From IMG/VR virus record IMGVR_UViG_3300037150_000095, positions 1 through 27,827 of that record: a DNA stretch of 27,827 bases; one strand, 5' to 3'. Positions 1-22,886 of this stretch are shown here, piece after piece; within the stretch, counting starts at the first letter, position 1, and each line of letters opens with the position of its first letter. A program made the position numbers and the translations under genes. The notes beneath the pieces are model-generated. The model was not told the origin of the DNA and did no database searches. It was given only the letters and a program-made list of their open reading frames with translations. Source of the DNA: a virus.

Positions 1-1047
1 TGAGGCTTCTGGCGCTCCACCGCGGGGAATACTGACGCCGACCGACCCTACTCCTTTGACGCCGGCGCGCACCTCAGTAGCCTCTGGCGACTGCTTCACC
101 CCGACACCGAACTTGCCCCCTGGAGTCGTCGCAGAGTAGCCTTCGTTTCCTGCGGCGTCGGTGGCCATCCCTTCCTTGATCCCGAGGAACCCTCCGAGGA
201 CACTAGGAATAAAGAATCCGGCTGTCCGCACGAAGTTTTCGGCCTCAGGACTCACGTTGTAGTGGTGAGCCACGCCGCCACCGACTGACGACGCTGCCGC
301 TCCGGTTGCCACGGAGCCCACGATCTTTGCCATCGCCACCTTCGAGGCAAGGTCGCCAGCTATAGCCCTCTGGAAGATCGCGCCCACCTCGGGTGCGCCA
401 AGCACCATAGCAACCTGCCCGCCGCCAGCAATAGTCTGCGTGAGTCCTACGAGAGCCTGTTTCTTCGCCTGGGCGAGTTTGGCTTGGTCGACAGGACGGT
501 TATCCATCGAGGCCTGCGGTGCGCCAGAAGCTTCGTATGAGGCAGCGGCACCTACAAGGTTGCCCACGCCGGAAGCGGCCGTCTTCGCGCCTGTGACGCC
601 TCCAACGTCCTGCGCGGCCTGGAGTTCATCTGTCGTGCTCAGTCCTGTCGGTCCAACGCTTGCAGCCCACTGCTTCATAGGAGCGCTGTTCCAAGCGGCG
701 TCTTGACCTTCAGGATCATCCGAGTCCTTCTGGACAAGTGGGTCTTCGCTGGTCACCATGAGGGGGTTATTGCTCTCAGGCACCATCCTCACAGGGGGAT
801 GGACTGTTGTCTGAGGGAGCGGAGCTACTGATCCTGCGGGGGTTCCTTGGGGAAGCGGAGCGCCGGACTGTCGCATACCTACCGGAGGTCCAGATGCTCC
901 AACCGACACCGCATACGGGTTGACCGGGCCCTGCTGATTGCCGCCCGAGACCTCGCTGGGGTCAAGAGAGACGGGCGCAGGACTAGCGCCTCCTGCCGGA
1001 GCCTGTGAAGTCTCATCCGGCTGTAGGACGACTGCGCTATCTGGCAT
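1..1047 (-). CDS. Partial internal virion / structural protein, C-terminus beyond the window
   Basis: The frame is open from ATG at 1047 to the left edge (349 codons, no stop), so only the N-terminal part is seen. The start is supported by GAGG about eight bases upstream. Residues 1 to about 130 are rich in Pro, Gly, Gln and Ser and probably disordered. From about residue 150 the sequence is Ala/Gly-rich with amphipathic stretches such as VAMVLGAPEVGAIFQRAI and a hydrophobic segment GFFIPSVLGGFLGIKEGM. This composition and the position after the tail genes suggest a protein packaged in the virion or ejected with DNA. I do not recognise a family. It begins 14 bases after the preceding gene ends, consistent with one operon. 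Two copies of the dispersed CAGGAC-type motif lie inside it. Confidence 0.7.
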   Translation of the reverse strand, partial: MPDSAVVLQPDETSQAPAGGASPAPVSLDPSEVSGGNQQGPVNPYAVSVGASGPPVGMRQSGAPLPQGTPAGSVAPLPQTTVHPPVRMVPESNNPLMVTSEDPLVQKDSDDPEGQDAAWNSAPMKQWAASVGPTGLSTTDELQAAQDVGGVTGAKTAASGVGNLVGAAASYEASGAPQASMDNRPVDQAKLAQAKKQALVGLTQTIAGGGQVAMVLGAPEVGAIFQRAIAGDLASKVAMAKIVGSVATGAAASSVGGGVAHHYNVSPEAENFVRTAGFFIPSVLGGFLGIKEGMATDAAGNEGYSATTPGGKFGVGVKQSPEATEVRAGVKGVGSVGVSIPRGGAPEAS

Positions 1048-1060
1048 TGTTGATCCTCAT

Positions 1061-1644
1061 CTATTGCGCCCTTCCAGTCTTCAGGTAATTCTGCATTTTG
1101 CTCAAAATCTGGATCTGCCGCGGGGAATACATAGTGTTTCCTGATTCAGCCTGTCCCTTCTTCCCCTCTCCTTCGTTGGCGATCCATCCCCTGATATAAG
1201 CATCATACGTCGGACCATTCCGATCTTTAGAGCCGTTCACGTCCTCCCACCACGTCTTACCCTGCTGTTGCCGCTGTAGTTCTTGGGGCGTAAAGCTCTG
1301 CATGAACTGGCTGCGAAGATCGTTCCAGTAAGGATCGCGGACCATACCGTGCATCAAGTCTCCATAAACGGCCTGCTTCAAAGCGATCGGATTATTCTTT
1401 AGATTGTTGCTGTAAATTTCTAGAGATGTCTTGCCTGGGGTTGGCGATGGGAAGTCGGCAGTTCCCGTATCATTCGGCGACCAGAATTCTAACTCCCCGC
1501 GCTCCTTAGCTCCGCGCTGTGCGCGCTGGCCGTTGGCGAACACGACAGAGGTATCGCTAGGATTGAAGTTCTTGGCTAGTCCGGGGTTCTCGGCTAGAAC
1601 CTGATGAAGAACGGAGGCGGGAGCAGCTTTAGGTTGGCCGCTCC
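1061..1644 (-). CDS. Downstream frame of a probable -1 frameshift product (C-terminal extension)
   Basis: A canonical initiation codon appears only at GTG 1543, which has no visible ribosome binding site. The same frame is open with protein-like sequence (KAAPASVLHQVLAENPGLAK, then NFNPSDTSVVFANGQ) right up to the stop codon of the preceding gene. Together with the slippery site and hairpin at 1619-1657, I read this as the C-terminal extension of the 1645-3123 protein: about 196 residues added by -1 frameshifting, total about 687. The segment contains polar helices (YWNDLRSQFMQSF, TPQELQRQQQGKTWWEDV) and no membrane segment, and is probably a virion component. The alternative is independent translation from GTG 1543 (160 residues) or a one-base error in the sequence. 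Confidence 0.6.
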
Positions 1645-1657
1645 CTACCGAGGGTTT
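1619..1657 (-). promoter_or_regulatory. Candidate -1 programmed ribosomal frameshift signal
   Basis: On the coding strand the zero frame reads CCA AAC CCT CGG TAG, so A-AAC-CCT (1657-1651) has the X-XXY-YYZ form. After a five-base spacer comes a 9-bp hairpin, GGGAGCGGC (1645-1637) with GCTGCTCCC (1627-1619), one G-T pair and a 9-base loop. A -1 slip reads AAA CCC TCG GTA GGG and enters the open downstream frame, bypassing the TAG at 1647-1645. The spacer length and stem position are typical of known bacterial frameshift sites. The heptamer itself, with C in the YYY position, is not one of the classical efficient ones. Confidence 0.6.
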
Positions 1658-3123: not shown

Positions 3124-3135
3124 GCCGACAGCTCC

Positions 3136-3693
3136 CTAACTATTAGACCCAGCTACTTTGATCCCCGTGTCGATCATTTCATCGTTCTGATCGGTCTCAG
3201 TGTTCGCTCCGCTCTGCGCGGTACCGAGGGTGCTGTCTTGCCCACTCAGAGACGTGCCGTAAAGTCCTGCCTCTTGGCTTGATCCTGTCGCCTCATCGCC
3301 AAGCAGTTTGTCCTGCTGCTGAAGCCACGTATTCTCGTTGGAAGTGTCGCGTCCTGCGTTGTACGAGGTCAGATCACGCTGACCTTGACGCGCGCTCGAT
3401 GCAACCGTATTGGCCAGAGCTGCGGTGTTGGTCCCCGTCTTGGCGACCGTGCTCCCCAACTGCTGCCTCTCCGCAGTGTTGGCAGAATTCATCGCGCCGG
3501 AGGTTTCGAGGTTTTGCTGAGTGAGGTAGTCCTTCGACTCAAACGGATTTCCCGCTGCCAGAGTCGAATTGACGTTCGAGAGGTAGGTGCCAATGTCACC
3601 CGACGCTGCACCGAAAGAACTGGCGGCATTGCTGGCGTCTGTAGACGCGGCTGCATTGGCTACCTGCGCTTGGTTCCCGGCTGCGTTACTCAT
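3136..3693 (-). CDS. Small Ala/Ser/Asn-rich virion-associated protein
   Basis: This 185-residue protein is very rich in Ala, Ser, Asn, Thr and Gln and almost free of aromatic residues. It is predicted mostly helical and soluble, with repeated stretches such as SSFGAASGDIGTYLSNVNST. There is no signal peptide or membrane segment. The composition matches ejection or internal virion proteins of podoviruses, and it heads the group of such genes running to the left edge. The start ATG at 3693 has a GGGAG site. The promoter-like box TGATACTCT lies 22 bases upstream at 3715-3723, so it may begin a transcript that includes the internal virion proteins. The family is not recognised. Confidence 0.65.
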   Translation of the reverse strand: MSNAAGNQAQVANAAASTDASNAASSFGAASGDIGTYLSNVNSTLAAGNPFESKDYLTQQNLETSGAMNSANTAERQQLGSTVAKTGTNTAALANTVASSARQGQRDLTSYNAGRDTSNENTWLQQQDKLLGDEATGSSQEAGLYGTSLSGQDSTLGTAQSGANTETDQNDEMIDTGIKVAGSNS

Positions 3694-3706
3694 AGGACTC
3701 CCATCA

Positions 3707-3727: not shown

Positions 3728-3737
3728 ACCCCTAGAT

Positions 3738-4178
3738 TTATAAGTCGCGGGTCCAGCGGGAGAACGTGTCGTCTTCACACTCGAATCCGAGGTATTCGAG
3801 AACGTATGCCATCTTCTCTTTCAGGCTCTTTCGAGTCCTGATGGTCGCCGTCTTGAACCCCATCCCGCGCAGCCATGTGTAGAGGTCGGATTCAAGTCCC
3901 GCCGTCTCCACCAAGGCTGTCGACGAGCAGCCGATCTTCACCACCTCGACCTGAGCTTCGAGGTATAACGCATCTACTACCTGCCCGGTATCGTCCTCAG
4001 CCACCAAAGCGAGCAATACGGGGCGCTCGAACAGGGCAGGACTCTTCTGCTTCTCGTCCAGTAACCGCTCAGATGCTTCTTTGATCCTGTCGATGGCTGG
4101 CTGGTCTTCTGGAAGGGCGAGCCGCCACGTCAAGTCCCCAGTGGTACGTCGGTAATCTTTCCAAAAATTTGCATCCAT
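3738..4178 (-). CDS. GNAT-fold protein, T7 gp13-like candidate
   Basis: The product is 146 residues from ATG 4178 (GGGG about nine bases upstream). A TTG at 4199 is a less likely start. The sequence follows a GNAT acetyltransferase outline: an N-terminal helix after the first strand (LALPEDQPAIDRIKEASE), a central beta pair (VLLALVAEDDTGQVVDALYL) and a C-terminal strand-helix-strand (FKTATIRTRKSLKEKMAYVL). The acetyl-CoA loop motif R/Q-x-x-G-x-G/A is not clear, so activity is doubtful. T7 gp13 and relatives are GNAT-fold proteins of about 140 residues encoded next to the internal virion proteins, which matches length and place. The role is likely virion assembly rather than metabolism. Confidence 0.5.
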   Translation of the reverse strand: MDANFWKDYRRTTGDLTWRLALPEDQPAIDRIKEASERLLDEKQKSPALFERPVLLALVAEDDTGQVVDALYLEAQVEVVKIGCSSTALVETAGLESDLYTWLRGMGFKTATIRTRKSLKEKMAYVLEYLGFECEDDTFSRWTRDL

Positions 4179-4195
4179 TAGTTTTACCCCACGAA

Positions 4196-4762: not shown

Positions 4763-4765
4763 ACT

Positions 4766-6292
4766 CTATCCATTGACCCAGCAGAACGCAAACCAGTTGA
4801 CGGCGCCACTCCAGCTATTTCCTGAGCCGTCAATGTAGATCAGCGTGCAGGTAGTTCCCGATATGTTGCAGTTGGCTACGCAGTGCATCACATTGCTTCC
4901 GCTGCCCACCTGACTGTTCGGACTCGCAATGGCGCACATCTGATTTGAGTTGAATCCTGCGGGCAATCCGAAACTGGAGCCGGATGCCGCTACCGCCCCA
5001 GCTCCGAACGCGATCTTGTTTCCGTCCGCAAGATTGATAATCAGGAACTCGCCATTCGTCACCGTCTCCGTGATGAGTCCAGGCGTCCACGCAACAGCCA
5101 GCCAGTTCCCCACACCAGCCCAGGTATCGCTCCCCGCGCTGAAATCGTCGTACTCGGCAGACATTGTGAGTCCTGTCAGGTAGCAATACTTGACCCCATG
5201 CGCGCCATTACCACTGCCTCCACCGCCTTGAATCGTGGGGATGATGAGCAGGTTCGACGCTGTGATCCAAGGAGTTTGCGTGGGAACGTAGATGTCATCC
5301 CCATCCGGAGTTTGCCCCGAGCCGAAAGCGATTTTCGCTCCTCCCGGCAGGGTGATGACCACCCATGACGATATGCCGTCCGAACTGTCGTATACGGTGG
5401 TGTTGTCTCCAGTGGGGTCGAAGGCGATCCCAAAGAAGTTCGCGTTTCCGCTGTATAAACTCTGGGGAAAGTTTCGGTCGCCATACTTCATGCTGATGAG
5501 CGCTGGGTAATCCAGCACCCCAGTCGCCACCAATGGTCCTGTCGGCTCCTGCAAGACGATCTCGCTGGTCGCAATGTTCGTCACCTGAGGAGGCTCGGTA
5601 TTGAATCCATTGGGCGTCACCAGAGAGAACATCGCAGAGGTGTAGAGGTTGTTCTGTGGAAGGCCAATTACATCGCCGTCTGCGCCGAATCCCTGCCCCA
5701 CCCCGATAGTCTCGTCTCCCGGCAGCGTGAAGACGGCCCACACCGCGTTTGCTTCAGCTTCGACGGTAATCTCTGAAATCGAGGTCCCTTGATTGATGTT
5801 CTTCCAAGTGTTGAAGTTCACACCATCGTAGGTTGAGCGGAATTGGAAGTACCAGCGTCCCGTCCCGAGTCCTGTCAGCGTCCAGTAAGTTTGCGACGAT
5901 CCAGTGTCGCCGCCGAAGGTCTGCGTGTTGGAGTTGACGTTGAACGCAGGACTCGTCGAAGCCCTGATCTGGTGATAGATCGATTTGACGGCTTGGAGGT
6001 TGGTTGTCGCTGTGGCTGCTTGTCCTGCTGCTGCCGCTTGGATGGAACTGATGGGCGACGTGGCTCCTGGGTTGACGATCTGGAGGATGTAGCTCTTTTC
6101 GAGCAGGCTTACCGTTCCTGTGGCTTGTGGAGGGACGGGGGCGCTGGAGTTCGGCGTCGTCGAAGACGCCAGAGTGCCTGTCACCGTCTGTGTCTCTACG
6201 GTCGCTTGAGAGATTTGATTCAGGACTTCCCGCAGGCTGGCGGAGTTCCCTTGAACGGCCGAGTCGATCTTCTGCTGTGAGATGTTTGCCAC
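4766..6292 (-). CDS. Fibre-like structural protein with three internal repeats
   Basis: A 508-residue protein from GTG 6292; an in-frame stop lies just upstream, and only a weak AGAG site is seen. Residues 1-115 are helical (QGNSASLREVLNQISQATVE; SIQAAAAGQAATATTNLQAV), probably a trimerising or attachment part. The rest is beta-rich. A motif with G-x-x-IA-x-G-x-G, often followed by DGD and a hydrophobic-Pro end, recurs at about 190-230 (ETIGVGQGFGADGDVIGLP), 315-355 (AKIAFGSGQTPDGDDIYVP) and 420-460 (NKIAFGAGAVAASGSSFGLP). This indicates triplication of a roughly 110-residue beta module. The module may bind host surface sugars, which is inference. It is the first protein gene after the tmRNA gene. 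Confidence 0.6.
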   Translation of the reverse strand: MANISQQKIDSAVQGNSASLREVLNQISQATVETQTVTGTLASSTTPNSSAPVPPQATGTVSLLEKSYILQIVNPGATSPISSIQAAAAGQAATATTNLQAVKSIYHQIRASTSPAFNVNSNTQTFGGDTGSSQTYWTLTGLGTGRWYFQFRSTYDGVNFNTWKNINQGTSISEITVEAEANAVWAVFTLPGDETIGVGQGFGADGDVIGLPQNNLYTSAMFSLVTPNGFNTEPPQVTNIATSEIVLQEPTGPLVATGVLDYPALISMKYGDRNFPQSLYSGNANFFGIAFDPTGDNTTVYDSSDGISSWVVITLPGGAKIAFGSGQTPDGDDIYVPTQTPWITASNLLIIPTIQGGGGSGNGAHGVKYCYLTGLTMSAEYDDFSAGSDTWAGVGNWLAVAWTPGLITETVTNGEFLIINLADGNKIAFGAGAVAASGSSFGLPAGFNSNQMCAIASPNSQVGSGSNVMHCVANCNISGTTCTLIYIDGSGNSWSGAVNWFAFCWVNG

Positions 6293-6660: not shown

Positions 6661-6749
6661 CATACCGTGCGTACTTTCGGGGCTAACCTCGCGGCTTCGC
6701 CTCCACCACCCGCTCTACATTGGAACGGGACACAACAGGACTCTAACAC

Positions 6750-6767: not shown

Positions 6768-9450
6768 ACCCCGGCCATCCCGGCCATGTCGGGATTACCA
6801 TCAGATCGCTCTTGAAGACTTCCCACCACGCTCCGGCCACCCCTCCATTATCCATGCCCACAGCCCAGCGCGTAGAGAAGACTCCCTGAATCGACATAGG
6901 GATGCTCATTCGCGTCCTGCGCCCCGGAGTCAGAATGTATGGCGACAGCGCCAGCGTCAGAACGTAAGCCGTGTCTTGATCGTCGTAGGCTGTCACACCG
7001 CAGAGCCCGTTGCCGGTACACCACATCCGCGCGCCAACCAACTTGTCGTGGGTCATCGCAGGACTCTCACTGAGCACGCCAATCCAGTTCGAGAAGTACC
7101 CCACTTGGTTCCCGTAGTAGTCCTCGTCGTAGTATTGCCCGTCGACCACGTTCTTGATCGAGCCATCCGCCGCGAAGAAAAGCATTTGGTTCTCGACGTT
7201 CACACCAGTCAGTTGAACTGCGTTCTTCGACTTCTGTGGGACGTAGACGGCATCGTTGAAGTTCAGAGGGTCTTGTGACCACTTCCGTCCTTCGACGTTC
7301 GGAACCAGTATCCCGCGCCGCACCACGAAGACAACAGGATCGCCAGTCCCAAAGTAGTAATTTAGGACCAAGCGGCAGTTGTTTGTCGTCGAGCCGTTGA
7401 TCGGACACAGGATGTGAACCAACCGGCGAACGTGATCGATCCGCAGTTTGATGAGGTGGCCGTAGTCCCAGTTGATCGTCTCCCATGTATCCTGCTGCTC
7501 CCGGCTGATGAGCGTGGGAGCGTTGCCGGTGAACATATAGACCCCGCTGCGATGCGCCCACATTGCGAACTCTGAATCGTCCTGTCCCGCAATGTCGATA
7601 GCTGATGCTCCTACTGGACCGTTGCCGCCCCACACTTGCCGCGGCGCCCACGTAGACGGATCACCTCCATTCTGCTCAACTACGAATCCTGAGTTCTCCT
7701 TGAACGAGTACCCGATGCCGCGAATCTCTCGATAGCATATGGTCCTGTCGCCGTCATTCTCTGAGACTTGGAAGTTTCCACCGGGGATGCGCACCGTCTC
7801 GGGGTCTTGAATGTCGGAGAACAAATGGCCGCTCTGATAGCCCACCGCGCCGGTGTAGACCACTCGCTGAAGACTTTTCGCAAAGTAGATGTCGACCACG
7901 GGAGGAAGTTGAATCTTGTCGAAGTAGTTGGTTACGTCGGTCGCGCCAGGGAGGTAGGTGTCGGTGAAGTTGAACAAGGCCGTCGTGCTGGTGTTGTCTT
8001 CGACCAGCGTTGCGGTGATGGCGACGTTGGCCTGATTGAAGCCGGGGCTTTCTGTGTCAGCCTGCGAGATGTAGGTAAACGGTCCTGCCGCACTCGCCCC
8101 GCTCACCGTAGCTGCTACGACGCGCGCTTGGCAGTTGTACGGGCCGATTGGAAGACGGAGGCACTGGATCGGCCAGCCTGACTGGGTGACGTTGACGCTC
8201 TGCGCGGCCGAGTTTGAGAATCCTGTCTGGTACTGCGTGTTCATCTGGAAGAAGGTCGTGAGGTAGCGCACGCCAGTATCGACGTTGCCAATCGTGGCCG
8301 TGGTCGCTGCGGTCGATACGGCTGATAGTTCCGCCCCAGTCGGAAAGGCCGAGATGGTGACAGAGGCGCTGGGCAGGACTGGAGAGCCATTCACGAGAGC
8401 GTAGTAACTTGGATCGATGATCTGAGATGGGTCTGCGGTCGAGGTTTGATCGATGAAGGCGTAGAGGTTCAGATGAGTCGCGCCGTAGGTTGCGCCCAGC
8501 GATCCCGAGGTCTGGAGATACGCTGGAATCGCAGGCATGACCACGCTGAGGTCGACCGCCCCTCCAGTAGTGTTTACCCACTTCAAAGTCGTGAGCGGAT
8601 TGAGCGTCCCCTGCACGTTGACGAGATCGTTGATGCCCTCTCCAACTGTATTGAGCAACGTCGCAGCCAGATAGACCGTCGCTCCCGCGATGATCGGAGA
8701 TCCCGAATCGGGCGCCGTCGTCGGAGTAATCACCGCCGGCGCGTCGGGCAGTCCTGAGATGAAGATGGGCGTGCATTCCTTCCAATGCACCGTGTTGTCG
8801 ACCACGGTCCCGTTGTAGCTTGTCGGCCATGAGGGTTGGCTGGAGGCATTGCCGCTCGTGCCCGCCGTGGTGCATTGGTAGAGATACCCAGTCTGAATCT
8901 CCACCCACGCGCCCTGTCCGTCCGTCTGCCCAAAGGTCTGGAACTGCGAAGGCGAGACGACTTGGCCAACACGGTAGTAGGTTCCAGGATTCCACGGTGC
9001 GCCAAAAGGAAGGTCTGAGGCAGGATACAGAATCCCGTCTGAAGAGTTGTAAACCAGAGGTGGCTGGGTCGGGAGCAATAGGTCGGTCAGCGCCACAAAC
9101 ATCTGATTGAACGCTTGTCTAAAGGTAGGATTGAGTCCTGTAAAGGCCGTGAATCCTGTGTTCAGGAAGAACGCTGCGTCGGTGAGGGTGAGATTGCTTG
9201 CCTGAAGAAACGGCGGGCAACAGTAGATATTCCCGTCCACGAAGCCATAAACGAACAGTAGGATCGTTTCGACCGCTTGCAGATTCAGCGTTCCCGGCTG
9301 GGCCGCAAGGTAGCGCAGTAGCCCACCTCCGGTCAGAGAGTTATTCAGGCCGAAGATCAATTGCGTGGAGTGGCCATAGCGCGTTGCAGTAGATTGCGCC
9401 GTGTACCGCTGATTTTGCGAGACGGTCGCCAGACCGAGGGGAAGATTCAC
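6766..9450 (-). CDS. Large tail protein, nozzle candidate (T7 gp12 / P22 gp10-like)
   Basis: An 894-residue beta-rich protein from GTG 9450 with GGGA nearby. The frame continues upstream through KPIIIPRYGSSCQWDDS, with AAGGGG ahead of an ATC, so a non-standard earlier start is possible. Residues about 245-480 resemble repeated fibronectin/Ig-like beta modules (TPTTAPDSGSPIIAGATVYL, then FSNSAAQSVNVTQSGWPIQC). The C-terminal half has propeller-like blades (EFAMWAHRSGVYMFTGNAP, LILCP-like strands, RWAVGMDNGGVAGAWWEVF). Size, fold outline and position directly after the candidate adaptor match tail nozzle proteins of podoviruses. The family assignment is from context and needs structure comparison. 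Confidence 0.5.
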   Translation of the reverse strand: MNLPLGLATVSQNQRYTAQSTATRYGHSTQLIFGLNNSLTGGGLLRYLAAQPGTLNLQAVETILLFVYGFVDGNIYCCPPFLQASNLTLTDAAFFLNTGFTAFTGLNPTFRQAFNQMFVALTDLLLPTQPPLVYNSSDGILYPASDLPFGAPWNPGTYYRVGQVVSPSQFQTFGQTDGQGAWVEIQTGYLYQCTTAGTSGNASSQPSWPTSYNGTVVDNTVHWKECTPIFISGLPDAPAVITPTTAPDSGSPIIAGATVYLAATLLNTVGEGINDLVNVQGTLNPLTTLKWVNTTGGAVDLSVVMPAIPAYLQTSGSLGATYGATHLNLYAFIDQTSTADPSQIIDPSYYALVNGSPVLPSASVTISAFPTGAELSAVSTAATTATIGNVDTGVRYLTTFFQMNTQYQTGFSNSAAQSVNVTQSGWPIQCLRLPIGPYNCQARVVAATVSGASAAGPFTYISQADTESPGFNQANVAITATLVEDNTSTTALFNFTDTYLPGATDVTNYFDKIQLPPVVDIYFAKSLQRVVYTGAVGYQSGHLFSDIQDPETVRIPGGNFQVSENDGDRTICYREIRGIGYSFKENSGFVVEQNGGDPSTWAPRQVWGGNGPVGASAIDIAGQDDSEFAMWAHRSGVYMFTGNAPTLISREQQDTWETINWDYGHLIKLRIDHVRRLVHILCPINGSTTNNCRLVLNYYFGTGDPVVFVVRRGILVPNVEGRKWSQDPLNFNDAVYVPQKSKNAVQLTGVNVENQMLFFAADGSIKNVVDGQYYDEDYYGNQVGYFSNWIGVLSESPAMTHDKLVGARMWCTGNGLCGVTAYDDQDTAYVLTLALSPYILTPGRRTRMSIPMSIQGVFSTRWAVGMDNGGVAGAWWEVFKSDLMVIPTWPGWPG

Positions 9451-9584: not shown

Positions 9585-10853
9585 TTACATTTGCAGCTTT
9601 GGACCTTCGACGAGGATAACGAACGGAGCAGCCAGAGCAGCCGCAGGATAGGCAGACGCAGTGAGTTCGCCCGTGGTCGCATCGACCGACAGTCCAGTGG
9701 ACAGCAGCCCCAAAGCGCCGAGGTCGCCCGTCCCGGTTGTGACGCCGGTGATGATGTAGCCGTTCATCTCAACGTTGGTCGCGGTGAGTCCTGTCGAGAG
9801 CACGGCTGTGAGCAACCCGTTCAGCGCCGAGCCATGAGTCAAGCCCTGGATCACGCCGATGCTTCCGGGGGTGAGGGTTTGGTTCACCGGCAGGACCGTG
9901 ATCGCGCCAGCCGCCGTCGCAGAGGCAGCGGTAGCCGCCACCGTCGAGCCGTTGATCGAGAATGAGTCCTGTGTAGCCTGGATAGGAGCGTTGCCGTTTG
10001 TGACGAGGACGGTGGCCGTCGCGGTTTCACCCGAGGTTGCCGAAAGATTCGGCGCAATCAGGTTGGCTGTGATCGAGGTGGTACTGGCCGTCAACACCTG
10101 AACGACCGCACCTTGCGGGACTTCGCCGGCTGCTAGACCTTGCAGGACGATGAAGTTGCCTGGGACGATGCTCGTTCCGGTGTTGGTGCATGTGATTGTC
10201 AGAACGTTCGAGGCGACGGCGACGGCAGACACGGCGATGGATTGTCCTGACGCCGTGCCGAGTGTGACAGGATTGTTCGCGTTGCCGCCGAAGAGTTGCT
10301 GCCACTTCAGAGTGTCGGTTCCAACCGCGTAATGCAGCGTCTTGGATGCGCCCATGTTGAAGCTGAAGGATGTTCCAGCCACAACCGCCGTGACCTGAAC
10401 GATGACGCCGTTGAGGAAGATGCCAAAGTTCGTCGCGCCATTGGTCAACAGGACGAAACTATTCAGCGGAGGAGGGGTTGTCGTGCTGACCGTCGCCACG
10501 CCGTTGACCGTAAAGACGGACTGGGTTGCGGCACCGGAGAGCGTTCCTAGCGTGATCGGTGTCCCGAGAGGCGCTTCGTTGGCGTTCTGAAAAATCTGCA
10601 ATCCCCACGTCGACAGCGTGCTTCCCTTCACCAGACTGGCAGAGAACCCTGGAGGTCCGGAAACCACGTAGTAATCCGTGATATTGCCCGGATAGCCAAT
10701 GGCCGCGTCCGCTTGGTTTATGGCCTGAGTGATGGCGCCGAGATTCAACAGGTCGCCGCCGGGGATGTAGCTTCCCGAAGCCTGCGCCGCGATGTAGAGC
10801 TGCTTCGTGCGAAGCCGATGATGAACTGCCTGAGTGGTAAGAGCGAGCGACAT
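9585..10853 (-). CDS. Virion structural protein with repeated beta modules
   Basis: The product is 422 residues from ATG 10853, chosen because AAAGGAGATTC stands just ahead; the longer frame to 11018 lacks a site. The N-terminus is helical and conserved-looking (ALTTQAVHHRLRTKQLYIAA). The rest is beta-rich with a recurring module: a strand like VASNVLTITCTNTG, then SIVPGNFIVLQGLA, then TSITANLIAPNLSA. The module appears in a related form in the exported 758-residue protein. Such modules are common in phage capsid-decorating or fibre proteins. The exact role is unknown. Its ribosome site is the same as that of the major capsid protein, suggesting strong translation. Confidence 0.6.
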   Translation of the reverse strand: MSLALTTQAVHHRLRTKQLYIAAQASGSYIPGGDLLNLGAITQAINQADAAIGYPGNITDYYVVSGPPGFSASLVKGSTLSTWGLQIFQNANEAPLGTPITLGTLSGAATQSVFTVNGVATVSTTTPPPLNSFVLLTNGATNFGIFLNGVIVQVTAVVAGTSFSFNMGASKTLHYAVGTDTLKWQQLFGGNANNPVTLGTASGQSIAVSAVAVASNVLTITCTNTGTSIVPGNFIVLQGLAAGEVPQGAVVQVLTASTTSITANLIAPNLSATSGETATATVLVTNGNAPIQATQDSFSINGSTVAATAASATAAGAITVLPVNQTLTPGSIGVIQGLTHGSALNGLLTAVLSTGLTATNVEMNGYIITGVTTGTGDLGALGLLSTGLSVDATTGELTASAYPAAALAAPFVILVEGPKLQM

Positions 10854-12841: not shown

Positions 12842-13579
12842 TTAGTTGCCGTAGTTGCTGGAGATTCCCGCATGTTCGGCGGCAAGCTGGCGAGCCTGAC
12901 CACCCTCCAGATAGGTTGAAAAGAAAGGACGCAAGGCAGTCATATTGGCGTCCCGTGTCTCCCGGTTCCACTTCTCGCTGCGCAATTTGTCGCGGTTCTC
13001 CGCCTCGTACTGCCGCTTGCGCACATACGCTCCGGTCGAGTACGCCAGCATCTCGTCGCGCATCAGTTCCCACTGCTCGATGATCCTGTCGAGGTAAGGG
13101 CCCGTCGGCGCTTCTGGATAGGGTGTGATCCCTGGAGGCAGGCAGGACACATAAGCCCCGCGGTAGGGATATGGCCCAAGCATCGGGAGGGTCGTGCCTT
13201 CAACCACTTTCGAGTTCCACTCGGCAGGACTCCCGAAGAACGCTGGCCCTACCCACTTTTCAAGGATGAAACCCGGCGTCTCGATGAATTCACAGTATTT
13301 CGGGATCCTGCGCATCTCGATCACATGCCGCTCGGCGCAGGACTCGCCCACCAGTTCGTGTCCTGTCTCTCCAGCCACGATGCGACCGCGTATCTCTACT
13401 GGAAGGTTCTCATCCCAGTCTGCCCAGTCTCCTGCGGAAAGCTCGGTGACGAAATCAGAGAACACCACGCGGTAGTTCTGGAAGCCCATGTAGCTGTCGC
13501 CATGCCGCTGACGGAGGTAGGAGTTCGCTTCCTTCAGTGCGGGACCGCTGTAACCGTCAAGCTCGTTGTGCTCGGGCAT
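12842..13579 (-). CDS. Unrecognised head/tail-region protein
   Basis: The product is 245 residues from ATG 13579. An upstream TTG at 13603 lies inside the terminator T-run and is rejected. The N-terminal part is globular (YMGFQNYRVVFSDFVTELSA, DWADWDENLP). The middle has GETGHELVGESCAERHVIEM. The C-terminal half is proline/tyrosine-rich, then strongly helical and charged (YVRKRQYEAENRDKLRSEKW). The family is not recognised. It follows a clear terminator, so unless read-through occurs it would need its own promoter; none of the TGATACTCT boxes is nearby. Two CAGGACTC motif copies (13225, 13338) encode Ser-Pro-Ala and Glu-Ser-Cys. Confidence 0.6.
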   Translation of the reverse strand: MPEHNELDGYSGPALKEANSYLRQRHGDSYMGFQNYRVVFSDFVTELSAGDWADWDENLPVEIRGRIVAGETGHELVGESCAERHVIEMRRIPKYCEFIETPGFILEKWVGPAFFGSPAEWNSKVVEGTTLPMLGPYPYRGAYVSCLPPGITPYPEAPTGPYLDRIIEQWELMRDEMLAYSTGAYVRKRQYEAENRDKLRSEKWNRETRDANMTALRPFFSTYLEGGQARQLAAEHAGISSNYGN

Positions 13580-13599: not shown

Positions 13600-13645
13600 G
13601 CAAAAAGACGGCAGGACTCCCGTTGCCTTGAAGGAATCCTGCCGT
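13600..13645 (-). terminator. Intrinsic terminator built from two copies of the dispersed motif
   Basis: The stem pairs 13608-13620 (ACGGCAGGACTCC on plus) with 13633-13645 (GGAATCCTGCCGT), 12 of 13 positions, with a 12-base loop. On the minus strand it is followed by CTTTTTG. It lies 18 bases past the stop of the exported-protein gene. Each arm is a copy of the dispersed CAGGACTC-type motif in opposite orientation. Confidence 0.8.
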
Positions 13646-13663: not shown

Positions 13664-14533
13664 TTAGTAACCCGCGATACACCGGCTCCCCGGCATCAGG
13701 TAGATGGTGTAGCTGGCGCTGCTCGACAGAGCGTTGATGCTGACTGTCGTGGGTAATGTGGTCGAAGTGACGAGGAAGTCCACATCAGCCCTATAGCTGG
13801 TATTGGCCGTGGTTGCGGTCGTCGCAGCAGTGATGTCCGTTGGGGTTGCAAAAGACGATCCAGCGCCGATCAGCGTATACACGTCCGCCAAGGTTGCGCC
13901 GCCAGAGCCGTAGTGCATGGTGCTGGTGACGATGGCGCTCGACGTGGCATTGCTGGTGTTCAGCCCGATCTTGATCGTTCCTGACGTGTTACTGGTTTGC
14001 CAGGTCAGCGAACAATGAACGGGAACTGTGGTGTAGGGCGGCAGCGGTGCTGTGGTGATGGCGGCAACGTAGGAGGTGGTGCCGTTCGAGAAGCCCGAGG
14101 AGGCCGTCTGGATGCCACTCTGCGTGCCTGTAAAGTTGCTGGCAGAGCCGCCGGCCGATGTGGACACCTCAAACACTCCAGCCGTCAGCCCGGTAGCGAT
14201 CACATAGTACGTGGTTCCTGCGGTGAGTCCTGTCGGCAGCGCCCCAGTGGTGTTGAAGAACACCTCTTGACCGGCGATGCAGGTATTTGGGACATTGACT
14301 ATGCCAGGAGACGCAAGCGTGAGCGTGACCGTTGAGCCCGGAGCAAAGCACCCCGGAAAGCTCCACGCGTTCACGTTCATAAACTCCGCCGTAGTCCCTG
14401 GAAGGTAGAGGTTCTGCTGTGCGTCGTAACCCCCCAGCCTTCCGCCAGGGACTTGCGCTTGAGCGATGGGAGCAATGGCCATCGTTGCCAGCCCGAAGAT
14501 GAGAACACCGATTACCGACTTCATATTCCGCAT
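13664..14533 (-). CDS. Sec-exported protein encoded directly after the capsid gene
   Basis: The product is 289 residues from ATG 14533, fixed by GAGGAG seven bases upstream. The first 26 residues form a clear signal peptide: charged start MRNMK, hydrophobic core SVIGVLIFGLATMAIA and an AQA cleavage site. The mature part is Gly/Thr/Ser-rich and beta-like (TAGTTYYVIATGLTAGVFEV, SGTIKIGLNTSNATSSAIV), similar in style to decoration or fibre beta modules, with three cysteines. Exported proteins are not expected in a capsid operon. It could be released from infected cells, coat the virion after lysis or modify the envelope. It sits between two motif-based hairpins and may therefore have its own RNA level. 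Confidence 0.65.
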   Translation of the reverse strand: MRNMKSVIGVLIFGLATMAIAPIAQAQVPGGRLGGYDAQQNLYLPGTTAEFMNVNAWSFPGCFAPGSTVTLTLASPGIVNVPNTCIAGQEVFFNTTGALPTGLTAGTTYYVIATGLTAGVFEVSTSAGGSASNFTGTQSGIQTASSGFSNGTTSYVAAITTAPLPPYTTVPVHCSLTWQTSNTSGTIKIGLNTSNATSSAIVTSTMHYGSGGATLADVYTLIGAGSSFATPTDITAATTATTANTSYRADVDFLVTSTTLPTTVSINALSSSASYTIYLMPGSRCIAGY

Positions 14534-14585: not shown

Positions 14586-14613
14586 GCGACAGGACTATTT
14601 CGAGTCCTGCCGC
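14586..14613 (-). terminator. Stem-loop from paired motif copies after the capsid gene
   Basis: GCGACAGGACT (14586-14596) pairs with AGTCCTGCCGC (14603-14613) at 10 of 11 positions with a 6-base loop. It lies 13 bases beyond the capsid gene stop. There is no strong T-run on the minus strand, so it may be an RNA end protector or a partial terminator rather than a full one. Confidence 0.5.
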
Positions 14614-14626: not shown

Positions 14627-15904
14627 CTAGTAGCCGGTTGGTTCAGGAAGGCCTGAGATGTACGACTGGGTCTTAGGGTTTGCACAAAAGTACTGGACCG
14701 TATCAACCATAAACGAACTGGCCACTGCTGTGATCTGCCCGTTGGTTCCGACCTGTTGGAAGATGGTCCGTCCCTGGTCGCTGAACCAGAAGGGAGCATC
14801 GCCCCATTTGATCTTGTTCCAGGTGTCGAGGTAGAGGAAGTCGACGCGGGAGATGTTGGCGTGGATGTTCTCGATGAAGGGGTTGCCGGACACTTTCATG
14901 TCGCCGGTGGTCAACAGGTCGAAGCCTGCGCCCACGTCGCCATTGTTGCGCCAGAAGTTCGTCATCGACAGTCCGGACTGTTCGTACTGGGCCTGCTGGC
15001 CGGGGGCCATGTGCATCTTGAACTTGCCCGACTTCACAGCCATCGTGCCGATGGCGTGCTTGATCTGGTCGAGTCCAAGACGGAACAGTGGGGGAGTCAG
15101 CGAGGAACCTCCGGCCGCTACGCCGTTCGACAGGATGAAGTTGTTCGCAGCCTGGGAGCGGTCAATACCGATGGTGAGTCCTGTCTGACTGTTGTTGTTC
15201 CAGTACGGCATCCCGTAGACGAACTGCGGAGCGCCTGAGACAAGACCGCCGAAGCGGATCGTGTTGTTGGCTGCGCCGAAGGCTGTGTCCACGGTAACGA
15301 TCTGCGCTCCGCCAATCTGATCCTGAACAGCGGTCACGTTGGAAGTGTTGACGTAGGTCAGGCCGTTGTAGATGTCGATGTTCTGACCCTTGGCAATCAG
15401 CCGTGCTCCGAAGTCAGCCGCGGAGAGTGTGTAGGTTCCTGCCGCGCCCAGCGTCACTGCGCTGATGGTCGCCATGTAGCCGGTGCCGTCGCCTGAGCAC
15501 AGAGTCTCGTCGCGGACCATCTTGAGGCGCTCAACAGTGTTGCGCATCGAGGTTTCGACAACCTGCGCGACCGCCAGGGTGGAACTCGAAGTGGTCAGCT
15601 TCGCCAGTTCGGTCCAGCCAACCGGAACGCACCATGCCAAGGGCTGCATGAAGCCTTCCTGCCAGTCCGGAGAGCCGGGGGTTGGGAAGTTGGTTGAGGC
15701 GTCCAGAGCGATTGCCGACACGACGCCGGGAAGTGCATCCTGGAACGTCACACGGTAAGTGTGCTCAGAAACCTTGGTTGCTTTACCGGACGAAGAGATC
15801 AGGCCGTCCAGGACGGAATCCTTCTCGACCGTCAACTGGGGCTGGTTCCAAACGCCCTCAATCATTACTGCTGCGGCTCCTGCGCTCGCTTGGAGAGCTG
15901 CCAT
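14627..15904 (-). CDS. Major capsid protein (HK97 fold)
   Basis: The product is 425 residues and forms the icosahedral shell. Supporting features: position just after the scaffold gene, length, an N-arm-like start, a spine-helix region with WTELAKLTTSSSTLAVAQVV and SMRNTVERLKMVRDETLC, an A-domain-like central part with GLTYVNTSNVTAVQD, and a C-terminal KIKWGDAPFWFSDQGRTIFQ block. The start ATG at 15904 is preceded by GAGGAGATTCATC, a strong ribosome site also used by the 9585-10853 gene. No promoter box precedes it, so it is probably expressed from the scaffold promoter region. I cannot name a subfamily. Confidence 0.75.
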   Translation of the reverse strand: MAALQASAGAAAVMIEGVWNQPQLTVEKDSVLDGLISSSGKATKVSEHTYRVTFQDALPGVVSAIALDASTNFPTPGSPDWQEGFMQPLAWCVPVGWTELAKLTTSSSTLAVAQVVETSMRNTVERLKMVRDETLCSGDGTGYMATISAVTLGAAGTYTLSAADFGARLIAKGQNIDIYNGLTYVNTSNVTAVQDQIGGAQIVTVDTAFGAANNTIRFGGLVSGAPQFVYGMPYWNNNSQTGLTIGIDRSQAANNFILSNGVAAGGSSLTPPLFRLGLDQIKHAIGTMAVKSGKFKMHMAPGQQAQYEQSGLSMTNFWRNNGDVGAGFDLLTTGDMKVSGNPFIENIHANISRVDFLYLDTWNKIKWGDAPFWFSDQGRTIFQQVGTNGQITAVASSFMVDTVQYFCANPKTQSYISGLPEPTGY

Positions 15905-15968: not shown

Positions 15969-17484
15969 CTATGCGGCGTACCCTTTAGACCGAGCGGCAG
16001 CCATCATTATCGCAATACTGATGTCGGACTCGTCTGGGTCTTTCCCTGTCTGTGCCTTCAGTTGGGCCGCAATCGCTTCACGCTGCTGCGTGGCGTTGGC
16101 TCCTCCTGCTGGCGCAATAGGGGTGGGTGCTCCACCGTTGATCTCGCTGCGGACACTCTCTGTCCGTGCGGCCTGTGCTGCTGCGCGCTCCCCGGCCTTC
16201 TTACTCACGACGATTCCAGCCTTCTCCATGATCGGTCTGCTGATCCTGCCAAGGTTGTCACGTAGGAATCGTTTCGCCAGAGCAATTTCTTTCTGGCGCC
16301 GTTCAGCGGTTGGTCCCATCGCTTCGATCTTCTTGCGGTCCATCCAGTACGCCGTATTCGTTGTGATAGCCGCTTTGAGAGCCGATTCGAGTTCCTTTTC
16401 CACTGCACCGCGAGTGAACGCATCCAACGCCGTCGCAGCGGTGAGCACACTCTCTATGCCCTTCGTTGCGACATCGGCCAAGTCTCCTTTTACGGCCTCG
16501 TCGTATGTGTCCCATGTTGCCTTTGTTGCTTCAGCGCGATCAGCCCGGATTCTGGCCTCCTGCGCGTCGAGTTCGGTTTTCCGAGCCTGTAAAACAGGGT
16601 CCGTAATCTGGTCTTTATCCGCGGTGGAGGGCCGCAATCCTACGCTCTCCATGACCAAATCCAGAGCTGCTTGCACATTCTCGTCGCCGAGCGCTTTCAC
16701 CTTTTGCAGTATCGCTACCGCAAACTTCCGTTCAAAAATCGTGTCGAAGAACTTGCCGGCTGTCCCGTCAGTCAGGTACTCACCCTTGTCATTCTTCATC
16801 GGAGTCCCGTCGGGGTTACGCAAAGCCGACATTTCAAGGATCTTCTGCACCAGGCCAGTCGTGCCCTTCTGCACGTCCGCGTTGACGCCCTGAAAGGCTT
16901 CGATGACTCCGGCGTACTCCTGCGCGCTCTCGGAGATGATCTTGGCCTCTTCGGGCGAGGCAAAGTGCTCACGCATCGCCGCGCCAAACTCGGCCAGCCG
17001 GGAGTTCGCCATGATCTCGTTGCGGATGTCCTCGGGGAGAGCGGCCTTCAGAGCGGCATTTGCCTCAATCTTCGCAGCAAGGTCTTTGGCACCAACAAAG
17101 CCGTCTTCGTCGAGAGTGTAACTTTCCTCTTCGTCCTGCGGAGTCTTTGCAGCAGCGGCAGCTTCGGCTGCCTTCTCCTCCGGTGTCTTCTCGTCGACGC
17201 TGGTCGGCTGGGTGACGGCAGGAATCTCGGGATCGGTTTTCTTCTCTTCCACTCCAAATCCCTTACCGGCGGCGGCGGCGACCATTGCCGCAACAGTGTC
17301 CTCAGAAGAGAGCGGCGTGGAAGCGTCCGGGGTAGCGGCAGGCGTTGTGGCTGCTGGAGTCGTAGCGGCGGCAGGACTCGTGGATGCAGGCGCGGTCACT
17401 GCTGGTGTGGACGTGGCGGCGGGTGTAGCTGCGGGAGCGGCTACGGCGGGGGCGGCGGCGGGAGTAGCGGTAACAGGGTCCATG
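15969..17484 (-). CDS. Scaffolding protein candidate
   Basis: The product is 505 residues from ATG 17484. Residues 1-60 are almost only Ala, Pro, Thr and Ser. An acidic Glu/Ala-rich part follows (KTPEEKAAEAAAAAKTPQDE), then long charged helices (RKTELDAQEARIRADRAEAT) and a basic C-terminal helix region ending in a small domain (PDESDISIAIMMAAARSKGY). Such a helical, charged protein directly ahead of the capsid gene is typical for a scaffold that guides shell assembly and then leaves. The start lacks a ribosome site, and the TGATACTCT box ends ten bases ahead, so the RNA would be nearly leaderless. The longer frame from 17759 runs through hairpins and is rejected. Confidence 0.65.
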
Positions 17485-17851: not shown

Positions 17852-18475
17852 TCACGATCCCCCGAAAACCGCGTCTTCCTCGCCTCCGAAGATCGGCTCT
17901 ACGCTGTGCTTGGCTCCGTCCCAGTAAATTGCCTCAATGCCACCCGGCTGCACCGAGTCGCCCAGCTCGGGCTCAATGTTCTCATTACCCTCAGTGAAGT
18001 TCACCAGGGCCACGCAATTGCTCGTATGAGCTACGAACAGGGTGAGTCCTGTCGCCTGCGCGTTCGTCAGAGCCTCTTTCCAGAAGGCAAATTGCCGCTG
18101 CTCGAAGTCTTCCAGCGACTCTCCGCCGGGAATGACGACGTAGGGGCTGTGAACGAACAGGCGCAGGGCTGGGTTGTTCTGGTCCCTGTCAATGCCTGAA
18201 AACATCCCAACGTGCCAAGGAAGTAAGCCTCCGTCCTGCGTCACATACAGTCCATGCTTTGAGGCTGCAATCTCAGCGGTAGTCCTCGCGCGCGGCAACG
18301 GAGACGAAATAATCTGCTTCAGCGGGGCTTTCTCTAAGAACTTGGCGGCAGTGTGGGCCTGCTGGATTCCCTTGTCGTCGAGTGGAACCGCGCTCCAGCC
18401 GCGGAAGCAGTTGGAAAAATTGAGTTCAGTTTCGCCGTGACGAAGAATGAAGCCGATCAGTTTGCCTTTGCTCAT
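17852..18475 (-). CDS. Histidine phosphatase family (phosphoglycerate-mutase-like)
   Basis: A 207-residue cytoplasmic phosphatase candidate. The signature RHGET is at residues 12-16, with His13 as the phospho-acceptor. SSPLPRARTTAEIA (58-71) supplies the second active-site arginine, GGESLEDFEQR follows near 117-126, and the second catalytic histidine is in FVAHTSN (His149). All key residues are present, so it is probably active; the substrate cannot be told. The ATG overlaps the stop of the 38-residue ORF (ATGA), and GAGGAAG stands ahead. It is unusual between portal and scaffold genes, where proteases or head proteins are normal. A role in capsid maturation or host metabolism is open. Confidence 0.8.
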   Translation of the reverse strand: MSKGKLIGFILRHGETELNFSNCFRGWSAVPLDDKGIQQAHTAAKFLEKAPLKQIISSPLPRARTTAEIAASKHGLYVTQDGGLLPWHVGMFSGIDRDQNNPALRLFVHSPYVVIPGGESLEDFEQRQFAFWKEALTNAQATGLTLFVAHTSNCVALVNFTEGNENIEPELGDSVQPGGIEAIYWDGAKHSVEPIFGGEEDAVFGGS

Positions 18476-20996: not shown

Positions 20997-20999
20997 GAT

Positions 21000-21512
21000 C
21001 TATCCTCTTTCCGCGCTATCGACGAGTTTCCGTATTTCGGCGGGTACGTACTCCGGACCCTGAGCGATGGCCTCTTCCTCGGTTAGCGGACGCGACTGAG
21101 TTCCGACCCTTCCCTCTTGTAGCGATCTGCGGAATTTGTCGGCTCGGGCGGTTCGAATGTTGAGCCTGATCTGTGCCACAGTTCGAGCGAGGACGTGGGG
21201 TGCGACAGGACCGCCCAACTCCTGAGCGGCGATGCGCGCCATCGCTTCATTGTCATTCTCGTTGACATTGGCCCAGTCGATCTCCTTCACTGAAGCAGAA
21301 CTGGGAGCATCTGAGTCCTGCCGCTTTGGGCGTCGGGCGACTACGGCAGGCATCTGGACAGCGAATCCTTCAGGAAGGCTCACGGAGACTGCAATGGGAG
21401 TGGACAGCCGCTCGGAGAGGGCAGTGTTCTCAGCCTTCAGGACCACGATAATCTCGTCCTTGGCGGCGAGGACAGCTTCGTACTGGCCACGACTGATCCA
21501 CGGCCATTTCAT
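21000..21512 (-). CDS. Small coiled-coil protein ahead of the portal gene
   Basis: A 170-residue protein. The N-terminus has MKWPWISRGQYEAVLAAKDE and continues as a coiled coil of about 20-35 (IIVVLKAENTALSERLS). The C-terminal half is charged and helical (EAMARIAAQELGGPVAPHVL, RTARADKFRRSLQEGR). There is no membrane segment. The start ATG 21512 has TTAGGA upstream and lies just past the stop of the preceding gene. It ends three bases before the portal start, so translation is probably coupled. The role is unknown; a head-assembly helper is plausible from position. Confidence 0.6.
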   Translation of the reverse strand: MKWPWISRGQYEAVLAAKDEIIVVLKAENTALSERLSTPIAVSVSLPEGFAVQMPAVVARRPKRQDSDAPSSASVKEIDWANVNENDNEAMARIAAQELGGPVAPHVLARTVAQIRLNIRTARADKFRRSLQEGRVGTQSRPLTEEEAIAQGPEYVPAEIRKLVDSAERG

Positions 21513-21513
21513 C

Positions 21514-21837
21514 CTAATTCCACTCCGATACGCGGACTACCGTGGTCGCCGCCACCGACTCGACCGTGCAATACTGCGTTGCCGACCCACCCATCCCGTT
21601 ATAGTTCGCTGGAACACCGACCAGCGGACCTGAGCCATCGATCGTACCAATCTTGATTGGTTGCATCCCTGGAGTGTAGGTCGAAGTGTTTCCGTTCGGC
21701 CACTTCACCACGAGTCCTGCCGCAGCCCCTGAGCCATCCTCCGCGATCTCGACGTATCGAGCAAACGTCTTGGCGGTTATGGCGACCGGAGTCCCACTCG
21801 TGACGCCCGTGATAGATGCCTGGACCTGAAGTCCCAT
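21514..21837 (-). CDS. Small beta-rich structural protein
   Basis: A 107-residue protein with alternating beta strands (LQVQASITGVTSGTPVAIT, AKTFARYVEIAEDG, AAAGLVVKWPNGNTSTYTPG, TVESVAATTVVRVSEW). The size and all-beta pattern suit a capsid cement or head-tail joining protein, but I do not recognise the family. No signal peptide or membrane segment is present. It is tightly packed with the genes on either side (2 and 1 bases apart), which suggests one operon from the promoter box at about 22320. Confidence 0.6.
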   Translation of the reverse strand: MGLQVQASITGVTSGTPVAITAKTFARYVEIAEDGSGAAAGLVVKWPNGNTSTYTPGMQPIKIGTIDGSGPLVGVPANYNGMGGSATQYCTVESVAATTVVRVSEWN

Positions 21838-21839
21838 TG

Positions 21840-22298
21840 TTACCTCCCTTGAAACATCGACGCTCGGTTGGGTGGAGGGCCGGCAGGGGCCGCAGGACCG
21901 GGGCCACTGGAGAACATTGAACTACGGTCGCTCGCCGCCGGAGCGGAGCCAGTGTCATCGGCGTCTCCATCCCCTTGCGGCGGCATCGCTGCCTGCGGCT
22001 CTGTGGCGCTCTGAGCGACTTGCTGGGCCTGTGGGCCGTATTTCCCTGCGTGGGCGTCCTGCACGAGCTTGTGGACGTGCTCGGGGTTCATCTTGGCCAC
22101 CGCAGCCTTGTGGTCTTCAGGCTTGCCCTTGTCGTCGTCCTTCGACTTTCCTGCGGAGTGGAGGGCGACGGCGACGGCCTGCTTGTTGGCGCGGTCCTTG
22201 CCGAACTTTTCGGAGGTGTGCTCAAAAGTCGGCCCTTTGTGAAATTCAGAGATATTTTTCGAGACGGTCGCAGGACTCTTACCAGGGATTAAGGGCAT
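21840..22298 (-). CDS. Small phage protein of the MPLIPGKS type
   Basis: The product is 152 residues from ATG 22298, with GGAGGAAGAG ahead; the longer frame to 22340 would include the promoter box. The N-terminal 50 residues (MPLIPGKSPATVSKNISEFH, then RANKQAVAVALHSAGKSK) match a short, basic, widespread phage protein type usually written MPL-x-x-GKS-x-x-x-x-SKNI ... KQAVAIAL, of unknown function. Here it is extended by a Lys/Asp-rich middle and a Pro/Gly/Ala-rich tail. It is the first gene after a terminator and promoter-like box, so it probably heads the head-gene transcript. Confidence 0.65.
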   Translation of the reverse strand: MPLIPGKSPATVSKNISEFHKGPTFEHTSEKFGKDRANKQAVAVALHSAGKSKDDDKGKPEDHKAAVAKMNPEHVHKLVQDAHAGKYGPQAQQVAQSATEPQAAMPPQGDGDADDTGSAPAASDRSSMFSSGPGPAAPAGPPPNRASMFQGR

Positions 22299-22315
22299 TT
22301 CTCTTCCTCCATCGA

Positions 22316-22336
22316 CGAGAGGCAGAGTATCACACT
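22316..22336 (-). promoter_or_regulatory. Promoter-like box TGATACTCTGCC, copy 5
   Basis: The minus strand reads TGATACTCTGCCTCTCGTCG from 22332, 25 bases ahead of ATG 22298 and directly after an intrinsic terminator. TG-T-GATACT resembles an extended -10. This terminator-promoter boundary is the best evidence that the repeated box is a promoter. Confidence 0.6.
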
Positions 22337-22340
22337 GCAA

Positions 22341-22370
22341 CAGAAAGCCCCCGCAACTGGCGAGGGCTTC
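22341..22370 (-). terminator. Intrinsic terminator after the cysteine hydrolase gene
   Basis: GCCCCCGC (22347-22354) pairs with GCGAGGGC (22360-22367), eight pairs including one G-U, with loop AACTG. On the minus strand TTTCTG follows. It lies 34 bases beyond the stop at 22404 and closes the right-hand block. Confidence 0.75.
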
Positions 22371-22403
22371 TGGGCTCTGGCGATTCTCCGCGACCTCCTT
22401 TTC

Positions 22404-22886
22404 TTAGTCGGGTTTTTCAGTAGGAACTTTAGTCCGCCCGATAAACAGTGGACTCAAATGCAGCGTCTCAGGCGTAATCATGGCGTCGTAGTCGGCCAAG
22501 ACATTCAAAGGCTGGAGTCCTGCCGCCTGCATGAACTCAAGCATCAGTTGTGAGCAGATGACACGCTGCGGCGACCAGATGCGCTTGTGGAAGAACAGGC
22601 CGAGGATGTCCCGATAGTTGTATTTCTGGCCGAGTTGCGATTCAAGGAAGTTGTGGGCTGCGGCAAATTGTTTGGCGCTGACAGGAAGAAAATAACGTCG
22701 TTCGCGAGATGGCTTGACCCAGTTCAATGCGCGCGTCTCGACACCTGTACCCGAGTGCGCCCCAGTCCAGCCGGTTCCGGCTCGGTTCTGAGCCTCCGTG
22801 TGGCACCAGAGTGAATCAGTCGTCCAGGTGATAGCACGACTGACCCAATCTGGCTCGTCTATGAAGCGGATGACTAGGTTTGGCAT
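22404..22886 (-). CDS. Papain-like (YiiX/NlpC-P60 type) cysteine hydrolase
   Basis: A 160-residue protein. The order His first, Cys later (WCHTEA with His29; VICSQLMLEFMQAAG with Cys111) is that of the circularly permuted papain-fold hydrolases such as YiiX. Between them are KQFAAAHNFLESQLGQKYNY and RDILGLFF, typical of that fold (the YNY-D-x-x-G/L region before the cysteine). Members cleave amide or thioester bonds in cell wall peptides, lipids or other substrates. There is no signal peptide. It lies downstream of the endolysin and could assist lysis or modify the host envelope, but a virion role cannot be excluded. Codon use looks like the neighbours. Confidence 0.6.
   Translation of the reverse strand: MPNLVIRFIDEPDWVSRAITWTTDSLWCHTEAQNRAGTGWTGAHSGTGVETRALNWVKPSRERRYFLPVSAKQFAAAHNFLESQLGQKYNYRDILGLFFHKRIWSPQRVICSQLMLEFMQAAGLQPLNVLADYDAMITPETLHLSPLFIGRTKVPTEKPD

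Follow-up and report, generated by a model that had tools for sequence, protein, structure and literature searches.

An asymmetric DNA word iterated across the genomes of one clade of uncultured phages

The word GAGTCCTG is approximately ten times more common than expected by chance in a group of uncultured soil phages, and comparisons of orthologous genes argue that it is kept by selection acting on the DNA itself. The likeliest explanation in our judgement, to which we assign a probability of roughly 45%, is that GAGTCCTG is a clade-specific self-recognition or DNA-processing signal of the phage system that works like Chi or like an uptake sequence.

Over-representation in the window and in related phages

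The window, which is the whole stretch of DNA analysed here, is a 27.8 kb virus record (IMGVR_UViG_3300037150_000095), and the IMG/VR record ends where the window does. An earlier note on this DNA had counted about 23 exact copies of GAGTCCTG, 13 in one orientation and 10 in the other, where about one was expected. Our recount by exact match gave exactly 23, 13 on the plus and 10 on the minus strand, with copies spanning positions 246 to 22522 (Table 1), and in 100 dinucleotide shuffles of the window the word occurred 1.47 times on average and at most 5 times. The note had also allowed that a Markov or codon-shuffled background might yield a similar count. Under a third-order Markov model, GAGTCCTG was the top over-represented 8-mer (23 copies versus 2.2 expected). 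Gene calls cover 93% of the window and 20 of the 23 copies are coding, in agreement with the description of the word as lying mainly inside genes; when synonymous codons were shuffled among the genes, only 2.3 ± 1.3 of these 20 copies were left. As the excess withstands the codon shuffle, it is a property of the DNA; neither codon usage nor protein sequence accounts for it. The wider forms reported for several genes are present as well, in GGTGAGTCCTGT- contexts at 9786, 14225, 15176 and 18044. The iteration of GAGTCCTG observed in the window is real.

Table 1. Copies of GAGTCCTG and associated features in the window
Feature	Position	Strand	Evidence or remark
GAGTCCTG copy	246..253	-	exact match; in gene 1-1047, giant protein N-terminal part
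GAGTCCTG copy	3833..3840	+	exact match
GAGTCCTG copy	4037..4044	-	exact match
GAGTCCTG copy	5168..5175	+	exact match
GAGTCCTG copy	5867..5874	+	exact match
GAGTCCTG copy	5947..5954	-	exact match
GAGTCCTG copy, intergenic	6736..6743	-	exact match
GAGTCCTG copy	7059..7066	-	exact match
GAGTCCTG copy	9133..9140	+	exact match
GAGTCCTG copy, extended form GGTGAGTCCTGTCG	9786..9793	+	exact match
GAGTCCTG copy	9964..9971	+	exact match
GAGTCCTG copy	13225..13232	-	exact match
GAGTCCTG copy	13338..13345	-	exact match
GAGTCCTG copy, 3' arm of hairpin 13608..13645	13612..13619	-	exact match, folding
Hairpin, inverted pair GAATCCTG / GAGTCCTG, intrinsic-terminator-like	13608..13645	-	-25.5 kcal/mol, z -3.65
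GAGTCCTG copy, extended form GGTGAGTCCTGTCG	14225..14232	+	exact match
GAGTCCTG copy, one arm of hairpin 14586..14613	14602..14609	+	exact match, folding
Hairpin, inverted pair AGTCCTG / GAGTCCTG	14586..14613	-	-19.9 kcal/mol, z -4.43
GAGTCCTG copy, extended form GGTGAGTCCTGTC	15176..15183	+	exact match
GAGTCCTG copy	17372..17379	-	exact match
GAGTCCTG copy, extended form GGTGAGTCCTGTCG	18044..18051	+	exact match
GAGTCCTG copy	21313..21320	+	exact match
GAGTCCTG copy	21712..21719	+	exact match
GAGTCCTG copy	22271..22278	-	exact match
GAGTCCTG copy	22515..22522	+	exact match
Motif-free stretch, accessory genes including endolysin gene	22893..27827		genes not common to motif-rich relatives

Relatives were collected as IMG/VR contigs of up to 70 kb, found through homologues of two conserved window genes. 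They form a clade of uncultured phages of roughly 65-70 kb, a small set of genomes that are partly dependent on one another. The note had raised the possibility that enrichment might be absent from the rest of the genome; related phages are enriched genome-wide, with whole-record counts of 35 in 69.8 kb, 49 in 68.4 kb, 49 in 68.9 kb, 33 in 64.4 kb, 21 in 51.3 kb and 57 in 67.8 kb, versus 0 to 3 for the reversed-word controls. GAGTCCTG ranks first or second among 8-mers in the window and in each of the six motif-rich relatives tested, codon shuffles confirm the excess in every one of these sequences, and enrichment over Markov, dinucleotide-shuffle and codon-shuffle controls was found in 8 phage genomes or fragments. 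Its density in the clade is 0.4-1.1 copies per kb, in both orientations. G420, a more distant relative, carries 2 copies in 69.3 kb, and enrichment was looked for and found absent in L232 and L233, which lie on the same side as G420. The motif is confined to one phage clade, with a related subclade that lacks it. Another fragment, G006, had been considered as a motif-free close relative and was dropped, since it consists mostly of accessory genes and is hence uninformative.

A GH108-type endolysin was recognised in the window. The terms 'portal' and 'capsid' are labels only, as neither protein was recognised by family or structure profiles, and the portal-region protein had no relative among 50,697 phage records. 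The relatives encode a DnaB helicase, GroEL/GroES, an SbcC-like ATPase, a PD-(D/E)XK exonuclease and phrog_3657, as well as a giant protein that combines an adenine methylase with a Strawberry-notch helicase. No tRNA was found, and no integrase or lysogeny genes were found among the genes scanned, which represent part of the gene set. GroEL and GroES lie at G002:66197-68384 and G419:26329-28896, the latter phage also carrying a Dps-like protein. A histidine phosphatase gene (window 17852-18475) occurs in only this phage of the set and is possibly host-derived.

Shape, placement and conservation of the word

The extended motif approximates GNGTCCTGYSG and is asymmetric; in the window, longer over-represented forms stretch GAGTCCTG to AGTCCTGYCG. 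When single-base variants were pooled over the phages, the TCCTG core was strict and the second base tolerant (variants enriched 2.5 to 3.8-fold), with partial tolerance for GAATCCTG and GAGTCCCG; Y, S and G were favoured downstream of the core. Five phages (G002, G004, G419, G008 and G001) are enriched in the variant GGGTCCTG, of which the window and G007 contain not a single copy; subclades differ in motif dialect. Avoidance of GGWCC was considered as the cause of the missing GGGTCCTG in these two sequences and does not explain it. Beside the enrichment of TCCTG words, CCTGG/CCAGG is under-represented (47 occurrences versus ~100 expected in the window), as it is in G419 and G002.

Over the phage set, 194 coding copies were found in 320 kb and 36 intergenic copies in 48.6 kb, the two densities being equally high. 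Approximately 84% of the copies lie inside genes, 83 in the sense and 111 in the antisense direction, and two frames dominate the coding copies, namely sense xSPA/V (72) and antisense [TA]GL (80). Among 90 sense copies in the window and seven relatives, 36 lie in the first fifth of a gene, plausibly within SPA-rich N-terminal tails.

In codon alignments of orthologues, with a mean nucleotide identity of 62%, exact GAGTCCTG was kept in 166 of 242 comparisons (69%) where the amino acids across the site were the same, whereas other 8-mers, taken in the two commonest phases, were kept in ~21%, roughly three times less often. At the same time, 89 of 124 aligned site positions were private to one phage. 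Conservation of the word extends to synonymous positions, even as individual sites are gained and lost. The dominance of frames encoding SPA and [TA]GL might be taken to suggest that codon or composition bias, a repeated protein motif or common ancestry produced the copies by itself, but the controls refute this and leave it almost no probability: codon shuffles retain about one tenth of the copies, sites are conserved beyond their amino acids, and intergenic density matches coding density.

Copies are also unevenly distributed between classes of genes, with 0.75 per kb in genes common to five or more phages and 0.31 per kb in phage-specific genes. The earlier note had pointed to the portal gene and the last 5.3 kb of the window as devoid of copies. 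Both are indeed empty; the last 5.3 kb, however, consist of genes that are not common to the motif-rich relatives, and such genes carry ~2.4 times fewer copies, so that this gap is not special. The orthologue of the portal-labelled gene in G002 contains 3 copies of GAGTCCTG.

Strand splits (plus/minus) were 13/10, 23/12, 14/35, 27/22, 12/21, 9/12 and 33/24, and a KOPS-like orientation skew was looked for in the strand totals of these 7 sequences, with no consistent polarity. Pairs closer than 40 bp comprise 25 inverted -+ pairs with pairable arms (~11 expected), 9 inverted the other way round and 5 with both copies on one strand, and 13 of the 25 inverted pairs are intergenic, mostly 6-29 bp past a stop codon. 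At distances of up to 160 bp in the window and seven relatives, same-orientation neighbours reach about half of their expected number (52 versus 99), and inverted -+ pairs are in excess (73 versus 50). Eight intergenic inverted pairs were folded and gave -12.7 to -31.3 kcal/mol, with z values of -2.7 to -5.1. The hairpins claimed at gene ends were confirmed at two places in the window (Table 1), one 22 bp past the stop of gene 13664-14533 and followed by TCTTTTT (a U-run), the other 17 bp past the stop of gene 14627-15904 and with no U-run.

The strong folding of the intergenic pairs and the U-run behind one of them would fit a word that acts in RNA or transcription, as terminators, mRNA-end hairpins or stoperator-like repressor sites, with the intragenic copies as by-products. 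We regard this as very improbable, as the great majority of copies are intragenic, in both orientations and mostly unpaired. Stoperators sit in the gaps between genes and point along the direction of transcription. Those of mycobacteriophages resemble GAGTCCTG in that tens of copies of an asymmetric word are spread through a single phage genome and its relatives, but the coding to intergenic and sense to antisense counts given above do not show the stoperator pattern.

Candidate readers and the search for a host

If the word is a signal of the phage system, a sequence-specific protein would read it on phage DNA, and DNA with many copies would gain an advantage from such reading. The reader may be a recombination, repair or DNA-protection enzyme, phage-encoded or recruited from the host, that would load at the site, or be modulated by it, wherever a DNA end or segment arises; loading of this kind would make many copies in both orientations useful. 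The hairpins would then be secondary, an abundant GC-rich word having been put to use in terminators or at mRNA ends. We count in favour of a reader in the phage system the confinement of the word to one clade, its dialects by subclade, the missing host signal described below and the recombination-type proteins encoded by clade members (the SbcC-like ATPase, the exonuclease and phrog_3657), and against it that recombination genes are also present in the motif-free G420. G420 does lack a family of 212-aa proteins. No protein whose presence tracks the motif was found among the compared phages, and the reader may instead be encoded by the host.

Among phage proteins, the giant methylase-helicase was considered as the reader. 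It is DarB-like, has 3.8-4.3 kaa, and is encoded at G419:31888-43170, with its N-terminal part encoded at window 1-1047. GAGTCCTG would in this case be the site that it recognises in order to load a cis-acting anti-restriction complex, in line with the proposal by Iyer et al. of a site-bound translocating methylase for this dyad, in which the mechanism is DNA-bound translocation (PMC5512222). Its central module is common to five long motif-rich genomes, about 40-98% and mostly above 60% identical, and the motif-free G420 has a different, SNF2-type module. Module and motif are nevertheless uncoupled: the giant protein of G008 lacks the module and the phage has kept the motif (19 coding copies versus 1.3 expected), and three other carriers of related modules, the phage BS-TP4, the Acinetobacter contig MD-2021a and a Persicobacter plasmid, have no comparable word. 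As module presence does not track the motif, this candidate is unsupported and we consider it quite improbable. The giant protein of G008, in which the central module is absent, carries a 2'-5' RNA ligase/Acb1-like domain that is possibly anti-CBASS.

The earlier note had likened the word to a DNA uptake sequence, and its anatomy bears this out. The DUS of Neisseria and the USS of Haemophilus share with GAGTCCTG a short asymmetric word with similar density, both orientations, inverted pairs behind genes and a higher density in core than in recent genes; the tolerant edges of the GAGTCCTG core and its preferred reading frames fit as well. Preferences in frame and orientation are known for DUS/USS (PMC2346458). 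Phages of competent hosts carry uptake sequences at up to ~750/Mb, and the density in our clade is comparable with the Hin-USS plateau of the same value (PMC6776037). GAGTCCTG could accordingly be the uptake sequence of a naturally competent, unsampled host lineage, from which the phages gained copies by repeated uptake and recombination, as in Pasteurellaceae phages, and the uptake-like hallmarks, especially the hairpins behind genes, are explained equally well by the DUS of such a host. However, the sequence of GAGTCCTG is unrelated to DUS/USS and has been seen in phages only, with no enriched bacterium found. Moreover, uptake sequences accumulate slowly in prophages, and the absence of lysogeny genes among those scanned fits poorly with such a build-up; among phages of USS hosts, the large and likely lytic ones contain few USS (PMC6776037), and the phages studied here are probably virulent. 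On balance, this origin appears unlikely, although it retains appreciable weight.

The search for an enriched host covered several phyla. Counts of the 8-mer cover 396 Acidobacteriota. Those of the extended 11-mer cover 398 Pseudomonadota, 289 Verrucomicrobiota and 149 Planctomycetota, together with 334 genomes from the same class as a Bryobacteraceae genome, ~285 of which were new. None of these ~1,500 genomes of four phyla nears the density of the motif in the phages, whose host may not be among them. The note had suggested that the same motif might top the list in candidate acidobacterial hosts; there was no enrichment in ~680 Acidobacteriota, and the acidobacterial assignment was not confirmed. 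A portal-region profile search of the 396 Acidobacteriota for a host found nothing.

Two Acidobacteriota were outliers. The excess in G400 is a CRISPR array (L234, G400:C41). Its repeat GTCGCAATCCTCTCTGAAGCGAGTCCTGAATTCCCAC occurs 79 times in 6 kb and includes GAGTCCTG, which looks like a coincidence; the 77 CRISPR spacers of this genome match the phages no better than controls. In G086 (L243-L248), dispersed TCAGTCC/GGACTGA heptamer microsatellites inflate the counts of AGTCCT-type words, and at least part of the excess comes from them.

Two pair-pattern scans for unrelated enriched viruses returned background contigs only, which weighs little against an uptake sequence as the scans had low power and missed the known clade members too. 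A scan of viral and bacterial collections for perfect hairpins gave only chance matches and unrelated palindromic repeats, for the bacterial collection among the matches listed. One Bacteroidaceae MAG, RGIG4715, has at least ~20 loci (L026, L032, L042, L061 and others) where GCAGGACTC...GAGTCCTGC forms a palindromic hairpin; this appears to be a REP-like repeat with no relation to GAGTCCTG.

Chi-like function and phage-borne recognition, which the note had listed as alternatives, are compatible with the data. The sampled Acidobacteriota showed no enrichment at the level of Chi. In the Chi case, GAGTCCTG would be that of a host RecBCD/AddAB-type enzyme, gathered by phages that use host recombination for concatemers or to survive end degradation. 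Like Chi, it is an asymmetric word of octamer size that is over-represented in phage genomes, and phages without recombinases over-represent Chi, including the virulent T5 (PMC3784561). The enrichment of GAGTCCTG, about 10-fold at 0.4-1.1/kb, is nonetheless far stronger than that of Chi in E. coli phages (O/E 2.5-3.1, ~0.2/kb; PMC3784561), there is no demonstrable strand or ori bias, and the clade has its own recombination-type genes. The only apparent excesses in Acidobacteriota are the CRISPR repeat and the microsatellites described above, although the host may be elsewhere. We thus consider a host Chi improbable.

Implications of a possible phage self-recognition word

We return to the preferred explanation, a signal read within the phage system. 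In its more specific form, which we put forward tentatively and consider somewhat less likely than not, a virus lineage marks its entire genome with a word by which it recognises itself. Such a word would be the viral equivalent of DUS or Chi, with a protein of the phage system as its reader, dialects by subclade and a sister clade without it. To our knowledge, uptake sequences have been described in two bacterial families, and Chi sites in a few species. If a selected word of comparable density is confined to a phage clade, it would either give the first sign of a third uptake system, the bearer of which would be an uncultured host, or be a viral self/non-self code. With either outcome, the reader would be identifiable by motif pull-down, and the word would be usable as a host or lineage marker in metagenomes.
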